From Arenibacter amylolyticus (GTDB lineage: Bacteria; Bacteroidota; Bacteroidia; Flavobacteriales; Flavobacteriaceae), in contig NZ_MTAZ01000025.1 of the NCBI RefSeq assembly GCF_002150785.1, positions 1 through 63,221 of the forward strand: a stretch of DNA of 63,221 bases, in the 5' to 3' direction. Shown here piece after piece: positions 47,349 through 57,731 of this stretch. The position numbers were made by a program, and so were the translations under genes. The notes below the pieces were generated by a model. That model did not search any database. It had not been told where the DNA came from and worked only from the letters and a program-made list of their open reading frames with translations. Positions within the stretch are counted from its first letter, which is position 1; each line of letters starts with the position of its first letter.

Positions 47349-47792
47349 CTAACTACCCTCCACGTTTTTGGTTCCTATATCGGATTTACCCCCTGTTTTT
47401 AAGACCAATTTTATATTTAGAATTTCAATTCCCTTGTCAATGGGTTTTAGCATATCGTACATATTTAGAGCTACAATACTGGCCCCGTGCATGGCCTCTA
47501 CCTCTACCCCGGTTTTGTAAATAGTTTTAACCGTTACCAGTACTTTAATTTGCAATCCTTCTATAGAATAGGTGATATCCGTAAACTCTATGGGTAAGGG
47601 ATGACAGTCCGGTAACAGATCCGGTGTTTTCTTAACCCCCAATAATCCCGCTGCCTTGCTCATGGCAAAAACATCCCCTTTGGGAACGGCATTATTCTTT
47701 ATGGCTTTTATGGTGTCTTCCGAACTTAGCTGTACCACCGCCTGGGCAATGGCCGTGCGTAGCGTCTCTTTTTTATGGGTGATATCTACCAT
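47349..47792 (-). CDS. moaC: Cyclic pyranopterin monophosphate synthase
   Basis: 147 residues. MoaC converts the MoaA product into cyclic pyranopterin monophosphate in molybdenum cofactor synthesis. It shows MVDITHK at the start, the signature CHPLPI (about residue 77), VEVEAMHGASIVALNMYDMLKPIDKG and the end LKTGGKS. It follows moaE by 3 bp. Other cofactor genes (moaA, moaD, moeA, mobA) are not in the window. Confidence 0.95.
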   Translation of the reverse strand: MVDITHKKETLRTAIAQAVVQLSSEDTIKAIKNNAVPKGDVFAMSKAAGLLGVKKTPDLLPDCHPLPIEFTDITYSIEGLQIKVLVTVKTIYKTGVEVEAMHGASIVALNMYDMLKPIDKGIEILNIKLVLKTGGKSDIGTKNVEGS

Positions 47793-47795
47793 AAC

Positions 47796-48236
47796 CTATG
47801 TATTTACTTTCCATTGATAGGAATCGTCCTTAAACAGCTCCTTACCGAATATGGGAACCTGACTCTTAATTTCGTCCACGATATGATGCATGGCTTTAAA
47901 AACTTCCTTTCTATGCGGAGCAGAAACAAAAACAAATAGACAAATTTCTCCGGCATTCACCCTTCCCAAACTGTGGTAGATGTGCATACAACTGAGATCG
48001 AATTTCTCAAAAGTCGCTTCTCTTATTTCGTGAAATTTCAGATTGGCCATCTCCTCATAAGCGGTATATTCTATAGCTGCAACCTCCTGGTCGTTAATTA
48101 TATCGGCCCTTACCTGGCCCAAGAAAATATCATGGGCCCCAATAGTGGTCTTGGATTGGTGCTTGGCAATGGAATTAGCAATAAATTCGGGGCTTATAGC
48201 ACCTTGTACAAATACATTTTTTATTTTTTTCTCCAT
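47796..48236 (-). CDS. moaE: Molybdopterin synthase catalytic subunit
   Basis: 146 residues. MoaE with MoaD adds two sulfurs to cyclic pyranopterin. Motifs are FLGQVRADI, IEYTAYEEMA, HSLGRVNAGEI, VSAPHRKEVFKA and the catalytic Lys region IKSQVPIFGKE (usual VPIWKKE). Coupled to moaC downstream by 3 bp. Confidence 0.95.
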   Translation of the reverse strand: MEKKIKNVFVQGAISPEFIANSIAKHQSKTTIGAHDIFLGQVRADIINDQEVAAIEYTAYEEMANLKFHEIREATFEKFDLSCMHIYHSLGRVNAGEICLFVFVSAPHRKEVFKAMHHIVDEIKSQVPIFGKELFKDDSYQWKVNT

Positions 48237-49633: not shown

Positions 49634-50214
49634 AAGGTTAGATTTTAGGTTCAAAGCATCTCTTAACTCCAATGACAAGGAAAACTCTCAAAAGACTAGC
49701 CAACATTGGATTATAGACAACAAGGTTTGATTATTTTGTCTTTACTAAACTAAGGCTTTTAGAGAGGTTATTTTAGGAGCTGTGGAGAAAATGCCCCACT
49801 ATTTAATTAAGAAGTGGTAAACGCAAGCGGCTTGAAGGGGATTTATTATTTAATTCAAGGAGTGCGGTTTAATACTGGGTTCTTTACTACCTCTTCTATC
49901 CTTTAATTTCGATTGCAACCTCCACCAAGGGGGATCAATCCATTGATGTATTTTATGGGAATAATGTCTTTTTCCTACAAACAACCCAAAAATCTTATTC
50001 AGCGTGGGTATTTTCAGATAAACAAGAGGCATCAAATCAGAAATTCACCATAATGCCTATCAGCTACCACTTGATTAAATCGTCACCACTTACAAAACGG
50101 ACTACAAGACACCAAAGGCTATTGAACGAATAAATTAACCTCTTAACGCAGAAAAGTATTCATCCTCTAAGGTTCTCGTTAGCAACCAACAAAACTTATA
50201 TAAACCATAAAACC
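49634..50214. other. 581-bp intergenic region upstream of the pilus-like operon
   Basis: Divergent genes flank it, so it carries promoters for DUF421 (minus) and the fibre operon (plus). I see no exact TAnnTTTG box, no RNA and no strong repeat. A 61-codon minus frame at 49850-50035 has no coding character. Confidence 0.45.
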
Positions 50215-50778
50215 ATGAAAAAAATTACAAAAACTATTTTAGCTAGCTCAGCCCTGTTGTTCGCATTTGCTGTAAATGCGCAAACAGAAACGGCCGATGT
50301 CACCTTAAACGTAAAACTTAAAGGTATTCATACTATCACGGTGAACCCTGCGCAAACAACAGTGGATTTAGTATATGACACAGAAGCAAAATATGCAGCT
50401 GGTGTGAAACTTCTTCAAGAAGACCATTTAGAGATTTTTAGCACTGGAGGCTTCCAAGTAACCGCAAGTTCATCAGTGGATGATATTGACAACACAGTAG
50501 CGAATGGATCTCATGGATCAATCGCAGCGAATACCATAACAATCTCTGCATTAGAAGGTACAACTAAACCTATTACTAGTTCCCCAAAACCTTCCTACTC
50601 AACCGGAGTTGCTTTATCTAAAACGGGAAGCACTATTGTAAGTTATAATAAAGGTGCCGCTAGAAAGGGTATCAACATAGAATATGGAGGAGGCGACAGC
50701 TATTTGGATTATTACGTAAAAGATCAAGGAACCTCAATCTATCAAACGACCGTAACCTATACTCTTACTGCCCAATAA
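50215..50778 (+). CDS. Putative major fibre subunit (DUF4402-like beta protein)
   Basis: 187 residues. The signal peptide ends FAVNAQ and a single beta-rich domain follows: TADVTLNVKLKGIHTITVNP, LEIFSTGGFQVTASSSV and a C-terminal strand IYQTTVTYTLTAQ of alternating hydrophobic residues. It is small, Thr/Ser/Gly-rich and without Cys, like pilin subunits of chaperone-usher systems. It is first in the operon and separated from the chaperone gene by a strong terminator hairpin, as expected for a subunit needed in excess. The subunit role is inference from context and the shared C-terminal motif. Confidence 0.75.
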   Translation: MKKITKTILASSALLFAFAVNAQTETADVTLNVKLKGIHTITVNPAQTTVDLVYDTEAKYAAGVKLLQEDHLEIFSTGGFQVTASSSVDDIDNTVANGSHGSIAANTITISALEGTTKPITSSPKPSYSTGVALSKTGSTIVSYNKGAARKGINIEYGGGDSYLDYYVKDQGTSIYQTTVTYTLTAQ

Positions 50779-50803
50779 TTCTATTACAGCAATCACAATT
50801 TAT

Positions 50804-50834
50804 AAAAAGTGCTATATACCATATAGCACTTTTT
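50804..50834 (+). terminator. Intra-operon terminator after the first subunit gene
   Basis: Perfect 14-bp stem AAAAAGTGCTATAT / ATATAGCACTTTTT with a 3-nt loop, 25 bp past the subunit stop and 31 bp before the chaperone start. Read-through would supply the downstream genes at lower level than the subunit. Confidence 0.85.
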
Positions 50835-50865
50835 ACCGTTTAATAAGTAAAAACTTACGCTCCCC

Positions 50866-51663
50866 ATGAAATACCCCATTCTTTTTTTATGCTTTCTTTT
50901 ATACGGCACCCTCCAGGCACAAACCGGACTCTCGGTATCGCCCCCACGGGTATATTTTGAAACAGACCCAGGACAACATAGTACCCAAAAAATAAGGGTG
51001 ACCAATGAGAGTGTTTCCAACAGCTTAGACCTTGCCATCAGCTTGGGCGATTGGGAGTACAATGTAAAAGGAGACAATATGATGTATCCTGCCGATAGTT
51101 TGGCCACCTCCTGCGCCAGTTGGGTAAGTTTAAAACAAGACCAACACTATTTCTCCCTAAAACCAGGAGAATCCAAGGAGGTAGAGGTAAGTATTGCCAC
51201 TCCGCAAACGCTTACCAACGACGTCCCTGTACATACGGCCATGTTGTACGTTACCCAAATGAACCCCATAGACGATGTTAGCAAAGCGGGCGCCAATATG
51301 AAGATTAGTGTGCGCTCTGGCATTAAGCTATACCACCGCACCAGGACAACACAGAACAAAAAGCTGGAAGTTCAAAACATGCTTTATGATCAGGAAACCA
51401 ATCAAATTGCCGTCCATTTTGAAAATTTGGGGAATATATGGACAGATGGTATTCTATACCCAGAATTATTACATACCGGTACCGGGGAAAAAATAACCCT
51501 AGACCACTTGGTGTTTTATACCATGCCAGGAAATTACAGGGAAACCCAGATTACCTTACCCCAAGACTTGCAAGCGGGGGATTACGTGGCAACCATAATT
51601 ATGGATTATGGCAATGATGCCAGCCTTGAAATGGCCGAATTAACCTTTGCCTATGAAAAATAA
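50866..51663 (+). CDS. PapD-like periplasmic chaperone
   Basis: 265 residues. The signal peptide ends GTLQAQ. Two Ig-like domains follow: the first opens LSVSPPRVYFETDPGQHSTQKIRVTNES, with the conserved Pro-Arg and Asn typical of fimbrial chaperones, and contains FSLKPGESKEVEVSI. The second has LEVQNMLYDQ...VHFENLGNI and ETQITLPQDLQAGDYVATIIMDYG. Fimbrial chaperones hold subunits by donor-strand complementation. It lies between two subunit-like genes; the third gene overlaps its end by about 11 nt. Identification as a chaperone is solid by fold pattern, less so for substrate. Confidence 0.82.
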   Translation: MKYPILFLCFLLYGTLQAQTGLSVSPPRVYFETDPGQHSTQKIRVTNESVSNSLDLAISLGDWEYNVKGDNMMYPADSLATSCASWVSLKQDQHYFSLKPGESKEVEVSIATPQTLTNDVPVHTAMLYVTQMNPIDDVSKAGANMKISVRSGIKLYHRTRTTQNKKLEVQNMLYDQETNQIAVHFENLGNIWTDGILYPELLHTGTGEKITLDHLVFYTMPGNYRETQITLPQDLQAGDYVATIIMDYGNDASLEMAELTFAYEK

Positions 51664-52627
51664 CGCTCTATATATCGTCTTTTTTATAGCTTCATTTGCA
51701 ACCCTCGATGCACAAAACATTAGTTTTGGAGTAGTTGAACAAAATCCTACGATCATTATCACGGATGAGGGTGGACAATCAAATCAGGACGCATTTTATT
51801 TTAATTTACAAGGCTCTGGGAATTCATCTATAGATAAAGGAACCTGGCGAATCTCAGTGGAGGCTATCGACCTTGACGGTTTCCCCGCAGACAAAATCAG
51901 TTTTCAACCTTCCAACACTACCAGTAATCCAAGTATTGATGAAATAGGCATGCCCACACATGTTCCTTTTCAACAAACAGCTGAAGTATTTTTAGTACCT
52001 CAATCCAACGCCTCTTTCTCAGGCACTTTTGATTTGTATTACCATGTTAGCGTAGCCGGAGGAGCCTATCTAAACACCTACCCGGAAAACTCGGAATTTA
52101 TTTTACCATTGCGCGCCAGATTTTATTATAAAAAGAATAAAAACAAAACTGATATCCTAACAACAGAATTTAATTTAAAAATACAAATTCAAATACCTCC
52201 AGTTACTCCCCAGTTTTCAATAGAAGTGAATGCCGATGCATCCAACGGCCTCTTGGAGCTAAAGTCCGTGAACGACTATGAACAAGGCACCCAAATAACT
52301 TACACAGGCGGACTAACTGTATCCGCCAATACTGATTATCAAGTACAAGTAAGATCATCTCAAGACCTCTTCAGCTCCCCTTCCGGCAACACACTTGCAC
52401 TGGAAGCTATAAGCGTTTTGCTATCCGCAGGAGCCAACAATCCCGCTACAACCAATCCCGTTCCACTAAGCAACTTGGAACAAATAATTGCGACCGGAGG
52501 AACCACAGAAGGAACACCTGTAAATTTTGACATTACCTATAAGAGCAATCCAAACGACCCTAATCTTATTAATGCCCCATCGGATATTTACAGTACAACG
52601 TTACAATATATCATCACGCCACAATAA
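51653..52627 (+). CDS. Second fibre subunit or tip protein
   Basis: About 324 residues from the ATG at 51653, overlapping the chaperone end (a TTG at 51647 is also in frame). The signal peptide ends ATLDAQ. It seems to have two beta domains: residues about 20-185, and about 190-324 after an IQIPPVTPQFSIEVN linker. It ends IYSTTLQYIITPQ, almost the same as the first subunit end. Two domains with a distal N-terminal domain suit an adhesin or tip protein. No Cys. Role inferred from the motif and operon. Confidence 0.7.
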   Translation: MKNNALYIVFFIASFATLDAQNISFGVVEQNPTIIITDEGGQSNQDAFYFNLQGSGNSSIDKGTWRISVEAIDLDGFPADKISFQPSNTTSNPSIDEIGMPTHVPFQQTAEVFLVPQSNASFSGTFDLYYHVSVAGGAYLNTYPENSEFILPLRARFYYKKNKNKTDILTTEFNLKIQIQIPPVTPQFSIEVNADASNGLLELKSVNDYEQGTQITYTGGLTVSANTDYQVQVRSSQDLFSSPSGNTLALEAISVLLSAGANNPATTNPVPLSNLEQIIATGGTTEGTPVNFDITYKSNPNDPNLINAPSDIYSTTLQYIITPQ

Positions 52628-52642
52628 ACCCCAGGCCCACCT

Positions 52643-55453
52643 ATGCGCGCATCCGTTGCTAAAAAACTCTGCTGTCTTTTTGGATTCCTATGGTGTTTTT
52701 CTACCTACGCACAACAAGGCCTAGAAATGACGGTTAAAGTGGAAGACGGAAAAGCAAGATCTAACCTGGTAGACGTACTAATAGGTCTTACCAATTCTAC
52801 TGAAAGTCCCTTTGAGGGTTTTATACAAATTAATACCCCAGCGGGATTTAAAAGTATTTCTGAGCCACTTGTTCCTATTTCCTTAGAACCTGGAGAAAAA
52901 CGCTTTATTTCCTCAAAATTATTGCGTCAACCTGCTGCCCTTGTTGGCACCTCCACTATAGGAGTAGACCTCTTGGACGCCCATAAGAAAGTGCTACAGA
53001 CCCAAGAAACAGCCCAGACGGTAAAAGAAAATAACCACATGCGACTTTTCACCGAAAGTCCTATGGTCTTATTGACCAATCCTAACGATACCTTGGTTTT
53101 AAAAGTAACGGTAAGCAACTTAGGCAACAAAATACAGGATGCTACCGTGGTGTTTAGCATCCCTAACCTTACGGGGGAAAAGAATTTCTTTGAAAAAAAT
53201 GGAGTGGTACACATAGGAGAAGACACCGATTTTATCTTGCGATTTCTACCGCCAAGGTCCTTGTTAACCTCACCACAATTCACCGTTCAGATAGCCGCAA
53301 TGCGAGGTCCGGGGAAAGATCTTTTTGGCAATACCTCTATCACCGTTCAAAACATTTCCTCTAGCAAGCAGCATCACGATCTGGGAGCTACCAGAGATAC
53401 TTATAATTCGCATCGAAACAGTATCACCACCTCCTACAGAAGACTTGGAGCAAACACCAATAGTTATCAAGTAATTGGTTCGGCAGATGTAAATCTTTCT
53501 GCGGGCTATTTGGCTATGGACGGCAATATGTATCTGACAGAGAATGCAGACGTACCTTATATAACGAACACCTCCTTGACGTATCATTTAGACAATTATT
53601 CATTGAAGGTGGGAAATATTAGTCAGCAATTGGAAATGCCACTTTATGGTCGCGGTATAGCCTCCAGTATCACCAATAGAGACAACAACAGAACCTTGGA
53701 ATTGGGTTTTATAGATCAAAACTATAATTTAATTGAGCAAAATGCTTTTTTAAAGCGGGGGTACGGAATGTATGTTAGCAGTGTTTTTGGCAATGTAAAC
53801 ACCCATAATTACACCTTGGGCAGCTATGTGTTTAAGGAGGATAAAATGGATAATTCGCGAAACCACATGCTAGGAATGGAAAAAGCCTACAGGCTTGGGG
53901 AAGGGTGGCGCTTAAACGTTAAAGGAAATGCCGCCATTAGCGACTATGAAGAAATAGATGAGAGTCAAACTTCCTACGCCTTGGAAACGCAGTACTCCGG
54001 AAATATAAAAAGGGTAAAGCTTTCAGGGAACTATTTTTTAAGCAGTGATTATTTTCCAGGTAATAGGCGTGGGGTTATTCAGATCCATCAGAACGCATCT
54101 AAAAACATATCCAAAAATCGTTCTATCTATTCCAATCTATTCATTTCCAACTATTCGCCCAAATCGCATACCTATAAGATAAATTACGCCTCTACCAATT
54201 ACCGCTTTAATATGGGGATTAATTTCCCTAGAAGGAAGGTATTTGGACTACGGCTCGGATTTTATCATCATACGGAAACCCGTACCAACTTCAGAGAAAG
54301 TGATTTGGAAACTACCTTAGGAAAAATGAGCGCCAACCGTATTACAAATAGCCTAAATTGGTCTAGCTTAAATAGGAAACACTCCGTATTACTTGGAATG
54401 GAAGAAGGGCTGGTAAAATATGCCAATGAAAGTTCTCTAAAACCTCAATTAAAAACCAATCTGATGTACCGTTTTGCTTGGATAAATGCCAATGCCACCT
54501 ATCAATATGGAAGTTTCTACCTATCTGAGAGTACTTTAGCCCAACAAAATACCAGTACAAACCAGGAATACCAACGCCTACTATTTTCGGTTTCCGCCAA
54601 CAAAAACTTTTTGGAAGATAAACTCGCTATCAACTCCGGTCTCAACTACAATAATAATTTCCAACTAGGCAGTAATATTTCCACATTTCTAAATATCCAC
54701 TATCAACCAAATAATCGATATCGACTATTTCTCAATACTTCTTGGTCCCAATATCAGACACAGCGTAATGACAATTATGTATATACTTCCCAGAACAACC
54801 AATTTACACTAGAAGCCGGACTAACCATTAATTTTAAGGGGAAAGCTCCTTCTACTGCTAGGAAAGGGAAAATTAGGGCTCAGGCATACTTCGATCACAA
54901 CGCCAATAATGTATTTGATGAAGGCGATGAAATTGCACCAGACTACCTTATTAAACTGAACGATGCTATTTTTAAAACAGACCAGAACGGTGAGCTTGTG
55001 TACAGATCTGTTCCTTTTGGAACCTACACCATTAATTCTGTTGCTGCCCAAGGATGGTTTACCAATGAACAGGAGTTTGAATTAAACGCCTACCACCAGC
55101 AGCTTTCCATCCCTTTGCACCAAACCGGAAGCGTTACAGGAAAAATACGGTATGAGTACGATCCTATGCTATCCAAAAAATTTCAACCTAAAATAGCAGG
55201 CATTCTTTTTAACATCTCCAAGGACGGGAAACATATACAGCGAATTTCCACTACCAACGATGGTGAATTCACCGTATTTTTACCGAATGGAACCTATCAA
55301 ATTTCCTTGGATAAAGGCTCTTTAGCCAGTAAGACCCATTGCGAACAACCCACCGCCAGTTTCACGGTGGAATCTGGGAAAACCAGTAAACTGTCTCCTT
55401 TTAAAATTCTAGTGGAGCAAAAAAGCATCAAGGTTAAACGCTTTGGAAAATAG
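52643..55453 (+). CDS. Usher-like outer-membrane barrel with beta-sandwich end domains
   Basis: 936 residues. After the signal peptide (ending YAQQ), about 25-260 form beta-sandwich domains (LEMTVKVEDGKARSNLVDVLIGL, VLKVTVSNLGNK). Residues about 265-735 are amphipathic strands ending AGLTINF, an outer-membrane barrel. About 737-825 is a beta domain with a calcium-loop-like DHNANNVFDEGDE; 826-936 is a second C-terminal beta domain (FLPNGTYQISLD). This order matches ushers (N-domain, barrel, CTD1, CTD2) although I see no clear PapC sequence similarity. It should export and assemble the two subunits; a T9SS-independent anchor is the alternative. Confidence 0.75.
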   Translation: MRASVAKKLCCLFGFLWCFSTYAQQGLEMTVKVEDGKARSNLVDVLIGLTNSTESPFEGFIQINTPAGFKSISEPLVPISLEPGEKRFISSKLLRQPAALVGTSTIGVDLLDAHKKVLQTQETAQTVKENNHMRLFTESPMVLLTNPNDTLVLKVTVSNLGNKIQDATVVFSIPNLTGEKNFFEKNGVVHIGEDTDFILRFLPPRSLLTSPQFTVQIAAMRGPGKDLFGNTSITVQNISSSKQHHDLGATRDTYNSHRNSITTSYRRLGANTNSYQVIGSADVNLSAGYLAMDGNMYLTENADVPYITNTSLTYHLDNYSLKVGNISQQLEMPLYGRGIASSITNRDNNRTLELGFIDQNYNLIEQNAFLKRGYGMYVSSVFGNVNTHNYTLGSYVFKEDKMDNSRNHMLGMEKAYRLGEGWRLNVKGNAAISDYEEIDESQTSYALETQYSGNIKRVKLSGNYFLSSDYFPGNRRGVIQIHQNASKNISKNRSIYSNLFISNYSPKSHTYKINYASTNYRFNMGINFPRRKVFGLRLGFYHHTETRTNFRESDLETTLGKMSANRITNSLNWSSLNRKHSVLLGMEEGLVKYANESSLKPQLKTNLMYRFAWINANATYQYGSFYLSESTLAQQNTSTNQEYQRLLFSVSANKNFLEDKLAINSGLNYNNNFQLGSNISTFLNIHYQPNNRYRLFLNTSWSQYQTQRNDNYVYTSQNNQFTLEAGLTINFKGKAPSTARKGKIRAQAYFDHNANNVFDEGDEIAPDYLIKLNDAIFKTDQNGELVYRSVPFGTYTINSVAAQGWFTNEQEFELNAYHQQLSIPLHQTGSVTGKIRYEYDPMLSKKFQPKIAGILFNISKDGKHIQRISTTNDGEFTVFLPNGTYQISLDKGSLASKTHCEQPTASFTVESGKTSKLSPFKILVEQKSIKVKRFGK

Positions 55454-56817: not shown

Positions 56818-57731
56818 CTATTCCTTTCTATATAATGCGGAAAGAATTTTACTAGCACTAGCCGACGATATGGATCGGTTAGGTTCTTTAATAAATATAT
56901 GTTGGGTAAGGGCTATATTTTCATAATTACTGTTTTCCAAAGAGGCGCTAAACTTTAATGTTGTTGGAACATTGGAAACCCTTTCTATACCTACTACTGA
57001 AATAAGGGGTTCATGCGAAGAAACAAAGACTTTTGTTGCAGGTATATCCCAATGATCACTTGCCTTGAACTTAGAGATACCATTATCTAAAACTTCGTCA
57101 TTATTCCACTCAAGCCGAGGAAAGTTTATTCCGAATCTTGTAAAATAACCATCAGAGTTTATAAAACAATAGGCAGTAAACAAACCTCCTAAAGATTCTC
57201 CTGTAACTCCTCTATCCGAATTCGTATTATAGTGCTTATCTACAAATGGAATTATTTCTGATTTTAAACTTTCCAAAAATTCGTCGGCCCCTCCAGCTTT
57301 TAAGGTCCCTTTAGGAAATCTAAAAAACTTTCCATTCTTCGCATATCCAGGGTGTCAACAGATGGCGTAAAATCGTGATATCTTTTAACAAACGAATCGT
57401 ATGAAGTAGTATTCTCGAAACCAATTCCTACGATAATAACGTCTTCCACTTCCCCCTCAGAACCCAATTTTTTCTGTGCCTCTTTAAAGTCGGATAACCC
57501 CAAGGAATTAATAACATATAATACGGGGTAAGATACTGTATCGTTTAATGAGTAACGTTCTGGAAATGATAGTTCCAGTTCATAATCGTGCCCCGTTATT
57601 TTAGAAGAAATAGTGTGGGTTCTTGTTGTTAGGCCTTTACTCACCTCTAACTCCTGACTATACGAGGACTGACTGAAAGTTAATAATACTATTGTAGTTA
57701 AAATATAATTTAAATATTTTGAAGTATTCAT
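56818..57731 (-). pseudogene. Esterase D-like alpha/beta hydrolase, frameshifted
   Basis: A secreted esterase (signal ending SSYSQE) split by one base. The upstream piece (57300-57731, 143 codons) has YPVLYVINS and VIIVGIGFENTTSYDSFVKRYHDFTPS and ends FLDFLKG-stop. The downstream piece (56818-57276) continues with KAGGADEFLESLKSEIIPF, the nucleophile GVTGESLGGLF and the C-terminal half. One extra G in the AAAGGG run near 57307-57312 would join them as LKGTLKAGGADEF. Either a decayed gene or a sequencing error; the family is that of siderophore or carbohydrate esterases. Confidence 0.82.

Follow-up and report, generated by a model that had tools for sequence, protein, structure and literature searches.

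Chaperone-usher pili are textbook adhesins, and the two basic residues of their classical chaperones hold the subunit carboxylate. Type V pili are surface fibres built by strand exchange. Archaic chaperones have no analogues of the Arg/Lys pair, as stated in an excerpt of PMC4654587. In Gram-positive bacteria, WxL clusters consist of a small protein, a large protein sharing its C-terminal domain and a WxLIP protein, and a hairpin of WxLIP is predicted to close a gap in the WxL fold (excerpted text of PMC10599100). A further point of comparison is given by the TLP-1a and TLP-1b filaments (PDB 9ikj, 9ikk; released 2024-11-13), already seen by cryo-EM, for which our literature search found neither the source organism nor the assembly genes nor a publication. 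Here we compare these systems with an operon of Arenibacter amylolyticus which, in our reading, is probably a far-diverged chaperone-usher-type pilus locus.

Results

A conserved four-gene operon

The window, the whole stretch of 63,221 nucleotides that was analysed, carries four consecutive ORFs on its plus strand (50215-50778, 50866-51663, 51647-52627 and 52643-55453), and inspection by eye found in all four products a basic and hydrophobic leader with an AQ cleavage-like end and no lipobox Cys, in agreement with a preliminary description of this DNA as holding four plus-strand genes with signal peptides. The genes code for a small pilin-like subunit of 187 aa (50215..50778), a two-Ig-domain periplasmic chaperone of 265 aa related by profile comparison to PapD/FimC and WxLIP (50866..51663), a large, tip-like subunit (51653..52627) and a predicted usher-like outer-membrane barrel of 936 aa (52643..55453). 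The third gene probably starts at ATG 51653, which gives 324 aa and an overlap with gene 2, rather than at TTG 51647 as in the ORF listing. The upstream stretch expected to hold the promoter (49731..50214, plus strand) does not contain the pattern TTTG-N17..23-TAnnTTTG, a consensus of Bacteroidota type, and Rfam and tRNA scans of the window gave no matches. Elsewhere on the minus strand lie two ORFs (47349-48236) presumably resembling the molybdenum-cofactor genes moaC and moaE, and an esterase-like protein recognised by eye (56818-57731), seemingly split into ORFs 57300-57731 and 56818-57276, possibly by a frameshift.

With the barrel as query (six-row alignment) we found 58 named loci, mostly in Chryseobacterium and Flavobacterium and also in Arenibacter, Myroides, Mesonia, Weeksella, Niabella and Sinomicrobium, at least three of which (L109, L148 and L150) overlap other genome samples, being, judged by length, contigs of G012, G380 and G040. 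The order subunit, chaperone, large subunit and barrel, adjacent and on the same strand, recurs in 54 of the 58, and the grouping is therefore more than chance; three of the exceptions end at a contig edge (L117, L155, L163) and the fourth has no called large gene (L159). In operon order, the named loci have median product lengths of 174, 267, 342 and 932 aa and, with mechanical start calls, median intergenic gaps of 78, -8 and 7 bases. The closest named barrel relative, from Arenibacter sp. 6A1, is 69% identical.

The system had been placed in Flavobacteriaceae, where it is indeed present, but it is not confined to that family: the chaperone profile has matches in 70 of 395 phylum genomes and in up to 35 of 171 genera; four of the 70 genomes contribute no more than a short match within an open reading frame of >700 aa. 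Stretches were examined for 55 of the 84 chaperone match rows, mostly the better-scoring ones. The resulting set of 50 chaperone loci comprises 37 of 40 stretches, 12 other loci and the window; L074, L078 and L079, with no called chaperone ORF, are outside this count, as are 11 further stretches. A barrel was detected by the first barrel profile in the same stretch at 43 of the 50 loci, 13 of which are rows of that profile, so that independent co-occurrence amounts to 30/37. Two loci (L093, L097) match a wider barrel profile weakly, five (L085, L087, L091, L092, L094) hold chaperone relatives with no barrel detected in the stretch even by the wider profile, and in L069 and L070 the barrel lies on the opposite strand. 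Of 60 related genomes, host included, 7 have the barrel and 9 the chaperone; within the genus, only 5 of 18 genomes have both, and the system is therefore patchy. The host itself carries a second operon on contig 27 (L021, G000:C27:48000-59217), which includes several subunit genes and encodes a large protein of 476 residues; proteins that look sensor-kinase-like by eye are its neighbours.

A chaperone with profile matches to PapD and WxLIP

Profile comparison with six E. coli K-12 PapD-family chaperones gave an hhalign probability of 96.4% with 208 columns aligned; the reversed alignment reached 0.8% and 20 shuffles at most 0.3%. Arg28 and Lys154 of the window chaperone align with R8 and K112 of FimC (FimC numbering from its sequence), and all 57 sequences of the close clade, 56 named ones plus that of the window, keep both residues; across the phylum-wide set the Arg is found in 19/50 and the Lys in 10/50 chaperones. 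On this profile evidence the chaperone is related to PapD, and the two-Ig, PapD-like protein named in the preliminary description is supported by the alignment and by both anchor residues alike. That description had left the choice between a divergent and an independent version of the pathway; because of the relation to PapD, independent origin is unlikely and divergence is what stands.

At E<=0.01, PapD_N matches 6 of the 50 chaperone members (best 5.1e-7), PF06030 matches 13 and PF11797 matches 3. Taken singly, the window chaperone reaches PF06030 at E 0.055 and has no PF00345 match in the family scan; across the host genome PF00345 and PF00577 have zero matches. The sole NCBIfam match among the four proteins is the LpfB fimbrial chaperone, below threshold at E 0.023, and phmmer of the window chaperone and barrel against the PDB returned nothing relevant. 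Searches of PDB sequences with chaperone profiles led to Gram-positive WxLIP, at E 7.3e-8 with 13 homologues and, for EfmWxLIP1 over both domains, at E 5.5e-13 with 50; PapD-family chains were absent from both. A T9SS tail family was also matched in 2/50 chaperones (best E 6e-5).

Subunits resembling a filament protein

The small subunit was modelled by AlphaFold2 with a pLDDT of 88.9, and its regions are a signal peptide (about 1-23, by eye), an N-terminal extension (about 22-36) and an Ig-like fold (37-187), residues 22-38 being unpaired in the model. TLP-1 is clearly the top match of this model in the PDB, followed by chaperone-usher pilins with middling scores, and in one phylum genome TLP-like genes adjoin a chaperone and a barrel of the same kind. 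The gene 3 product combines an N-terminal domain of its own with a pilin-like domain within residues 151-326, and we read the two-domain beta protein noted earlier as a two-domain, tip-like subunit. Full-length small subunit genes number up to four per operon (L025, L099).

The first 16-row subunit profile had no match at E<=0.05; DUF4402 passed its threshold in 3 of 10 subunits selected from distant operons and was not among the matches of a separate 60-subunit family scan. Neither the scan of the window proteins nor that of the 60 subunits found a T9SS sorting domain in the subunits, and FimA/Mfa families were not among the matches of either. The idea, taken from the C-terminal strand, that the subunits are WxL proteins was dropped, PF13731 having no match in the 60 subunits at E<=0.05; it is also absent from the host genome at E<=0.001.

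The profile match with WxLIP allows a reading of the operon as WxL-like display without polymerisation, in which a small and a large subunit stay bound at the surface to the WxLIP-like protein that completes their fold, and the barrel is no more than their outer-membrane anchor. We consider it improbable: the similarity of the subunits is to the TLP-1 filament and, at a lower level, to pilins, the small one has an unpaired N-terminal extension and may be encoded by several genes in one operon, no WxL family match was obtained in the 60 subunits (0/60), and the C-terminal end of the chaperone has, by eye, no membrane helix. These points have to be set against the match of EfmWxLIP1 over both domains, the PF06030 members of the family, and the similar composition and predicted gap-filling hairpin of the WxL clusters described above (PMC10599100, excerpt).

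A predicted barrel with chaperone-like N-terminal domains

The AlphaFold2 model of the gene 4 product (pLDDT 76.2, pTM 0.49) predicts a barrel of 26 strands (259-731) with beta domains at its N-terminus (about 27-237; chaperone-like by the profile comparison below) and two further beta domains at its C-terminus (about 741-838 and 850-924), much as the 936-residue barrel with beta domains at both ends had been described. A Foldseek search of 350,542 PDB chains placed FimD (eight entries) or PapC (one) at ranks 1-9, with TM-scores of only 0.19-0.28, and global superposition on ushers was poor. In VIA, the barrel region aligned with ushers over 359-365 residues at 5.3-5.5 A, with Z level with porins and with 414 residues aligned to LptD, the model's pTM of 0.49 applying here too. 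The family scan found no PF00577 match in the window barrel, and no inserted domain that could be a plug is seen in the model, the longest inter-strand stretches being about 358-374 and 622-644. The earlier claim of an usher unlike PapC holds for the sequence; the predicted fold is probably usher-like, going by the Foldseek ranking.

Relatives from family f38 have matches to the usher profile that lie between positions 20 and 209, and hhalign to FimD spans 142-421, which corresponds to the plug, at only 5.8%. The two N-terminal domains (residues about 21-245) match the operon's own chaperone family with 95.8% in hhalign and show no match with PapD (0.2%); we know of no usher with chaperone-like N-terminal domains. 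The C-terminal beta domains match SpaA (PF17802, E 7.2e-8), the sole above-cut-off family match among the four proteins, and through these domains a 13-row barrel profile found NOMO2 and no usher. A 97.6% match between Flavobacteriia and f38 barrels was tried as a bridge to ushers and rejected: it is unfit as barrel homology because the C-terminal domains carry the score (97.5%, against 0.1% for the barrel core). Of four barrels scanned from distant operons, three (L171, L172 and L174, family f38) carry SPOR domains (PF05036, best E 5.5e-23), which suggests, from sequence, that these would be ushers tied to peptidoglycan.

That the barrel is instead porin-like, LptD-like or structural, the fibres surfacing by another route such as the type IX system, common in the phylum (PMC4793230, excerpt), and the chaperone acting in the periplasm only, is very unlikely in view of its place directly after the large-subunit gene in 54/58 loci, the ranking of ushers first by Foldseek and the T9SS sorting domain not found in the subunits, the Z tie with porins, the longer alignment to LptD and the plug not seen being the points in its favour.

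Discussion

The gene order, the family relation of the chaperone, the subunit fold and the invariant anchor residues are computed results, and we assign a probability of roughly 0.85 to the operon being a chaperone-usher-type pilus that works by donor-strand complementation. Under this model the subunits would be exported by Sec and then handled in the periplasm, each of them (the small subunit, and the C-terminal domain of the gene 3 product) being an Ig-like domain short of one strand. The Arg/Lys pair in the chaperone cleft would grip the subunit C-terminus while a chaperone strand fills the gap, and the periplasmic end domains of the barrel would take up the chaperone-subunit complexes at the outer membrane. 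At this site the chaperone strand may give way to the N-terminal extension of the incoming subunit, and by such exchange the subunits would polymerise into a fibre leaving the cell through the barrel. The gene 3 product, with its separate N-terminal domain, would be exported first and come to lie at the tip, like FimH, where it could serve adhesion.

A broader proposal, to which we give even odds, is that these operons form a fourth, phylum-wide Bacteroidota class of chaperone-usher systems, with a plug-less pore, a fused chaperone relative replacing the N-terminal domain of FimD, and a chaperone linking PapD to Gram-positive WxLIP, strand-complementing display in the two envelope types thereby belonging to a single ancient superfamily. 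PF00577 is above cut-off in none of the 395 phylum genomes and below it in 4, and therefore such a survey would score the phylum as without chaperone-usher pili. By sequence criteria a PapD-like chaperone with the Arg/Lys pair is found in this operon, and the curated usher family PF00577 is not. The window system, with its chaperone in up to 35/171 sampled genera, would fill that gap; it would also be a candidate assembly route for the TLP-1 filaments, and it opens to testing how a plug-less usher that begins with chaperone-like domains could function.

Comparison with known systems

Among the matches listed in our literature search, judged by title and abstract opening, we recognised no paper describing the window system, DUF4402 pili or TLP-1. 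The TasA fibres of Bacillus differ from the window system in having neither an outer membrane nor an usher. Type V pili of Bacteroidia (FimA/Mfa1) are surface fibres of the same phylum, whereas the window subunits have no lipobox Cys (by eye) and no FimA/Mfa family match and are accompanied by a chaperone and a barrel. With Gram-positive WxL/WxLIP clusters the operon shares a chaperone with a profile match to WxLIP over both domains, a small and a large protein with a common C-terminal domain, and strand complementation, predicted for WxL in the excerpt of PMC10599100; it differs in subunits without a WxL match, in its outer-membrane barrel and in a chaperone without a membrane helix (by eye). 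The TLP-1a/TLP-1b filaments are matched by both the subunit profile and the subunit model. Compared with chaperone-usher pathways (FimC/FimD/FimA/FimH; CsuC-CsuA/B; CfaA, EcpB), the window has no PF00577 or PF00345 match, the barrel model shows no plug, the place of the FimD NTD is taken by two domains resembling the chaperone, 26 strands are predicted instead of 24, and direct PDB sequence searches with its chaperone give WxLIP and not PapD. Shared with them are the gene cluster, the classical Arg/Lys pair in a two-Ig chaperone and a two-domain large subunit; the models further point to pilin-like subunits that carry an N-terminal extension and to a big barrel followed by two C-terminal domains.
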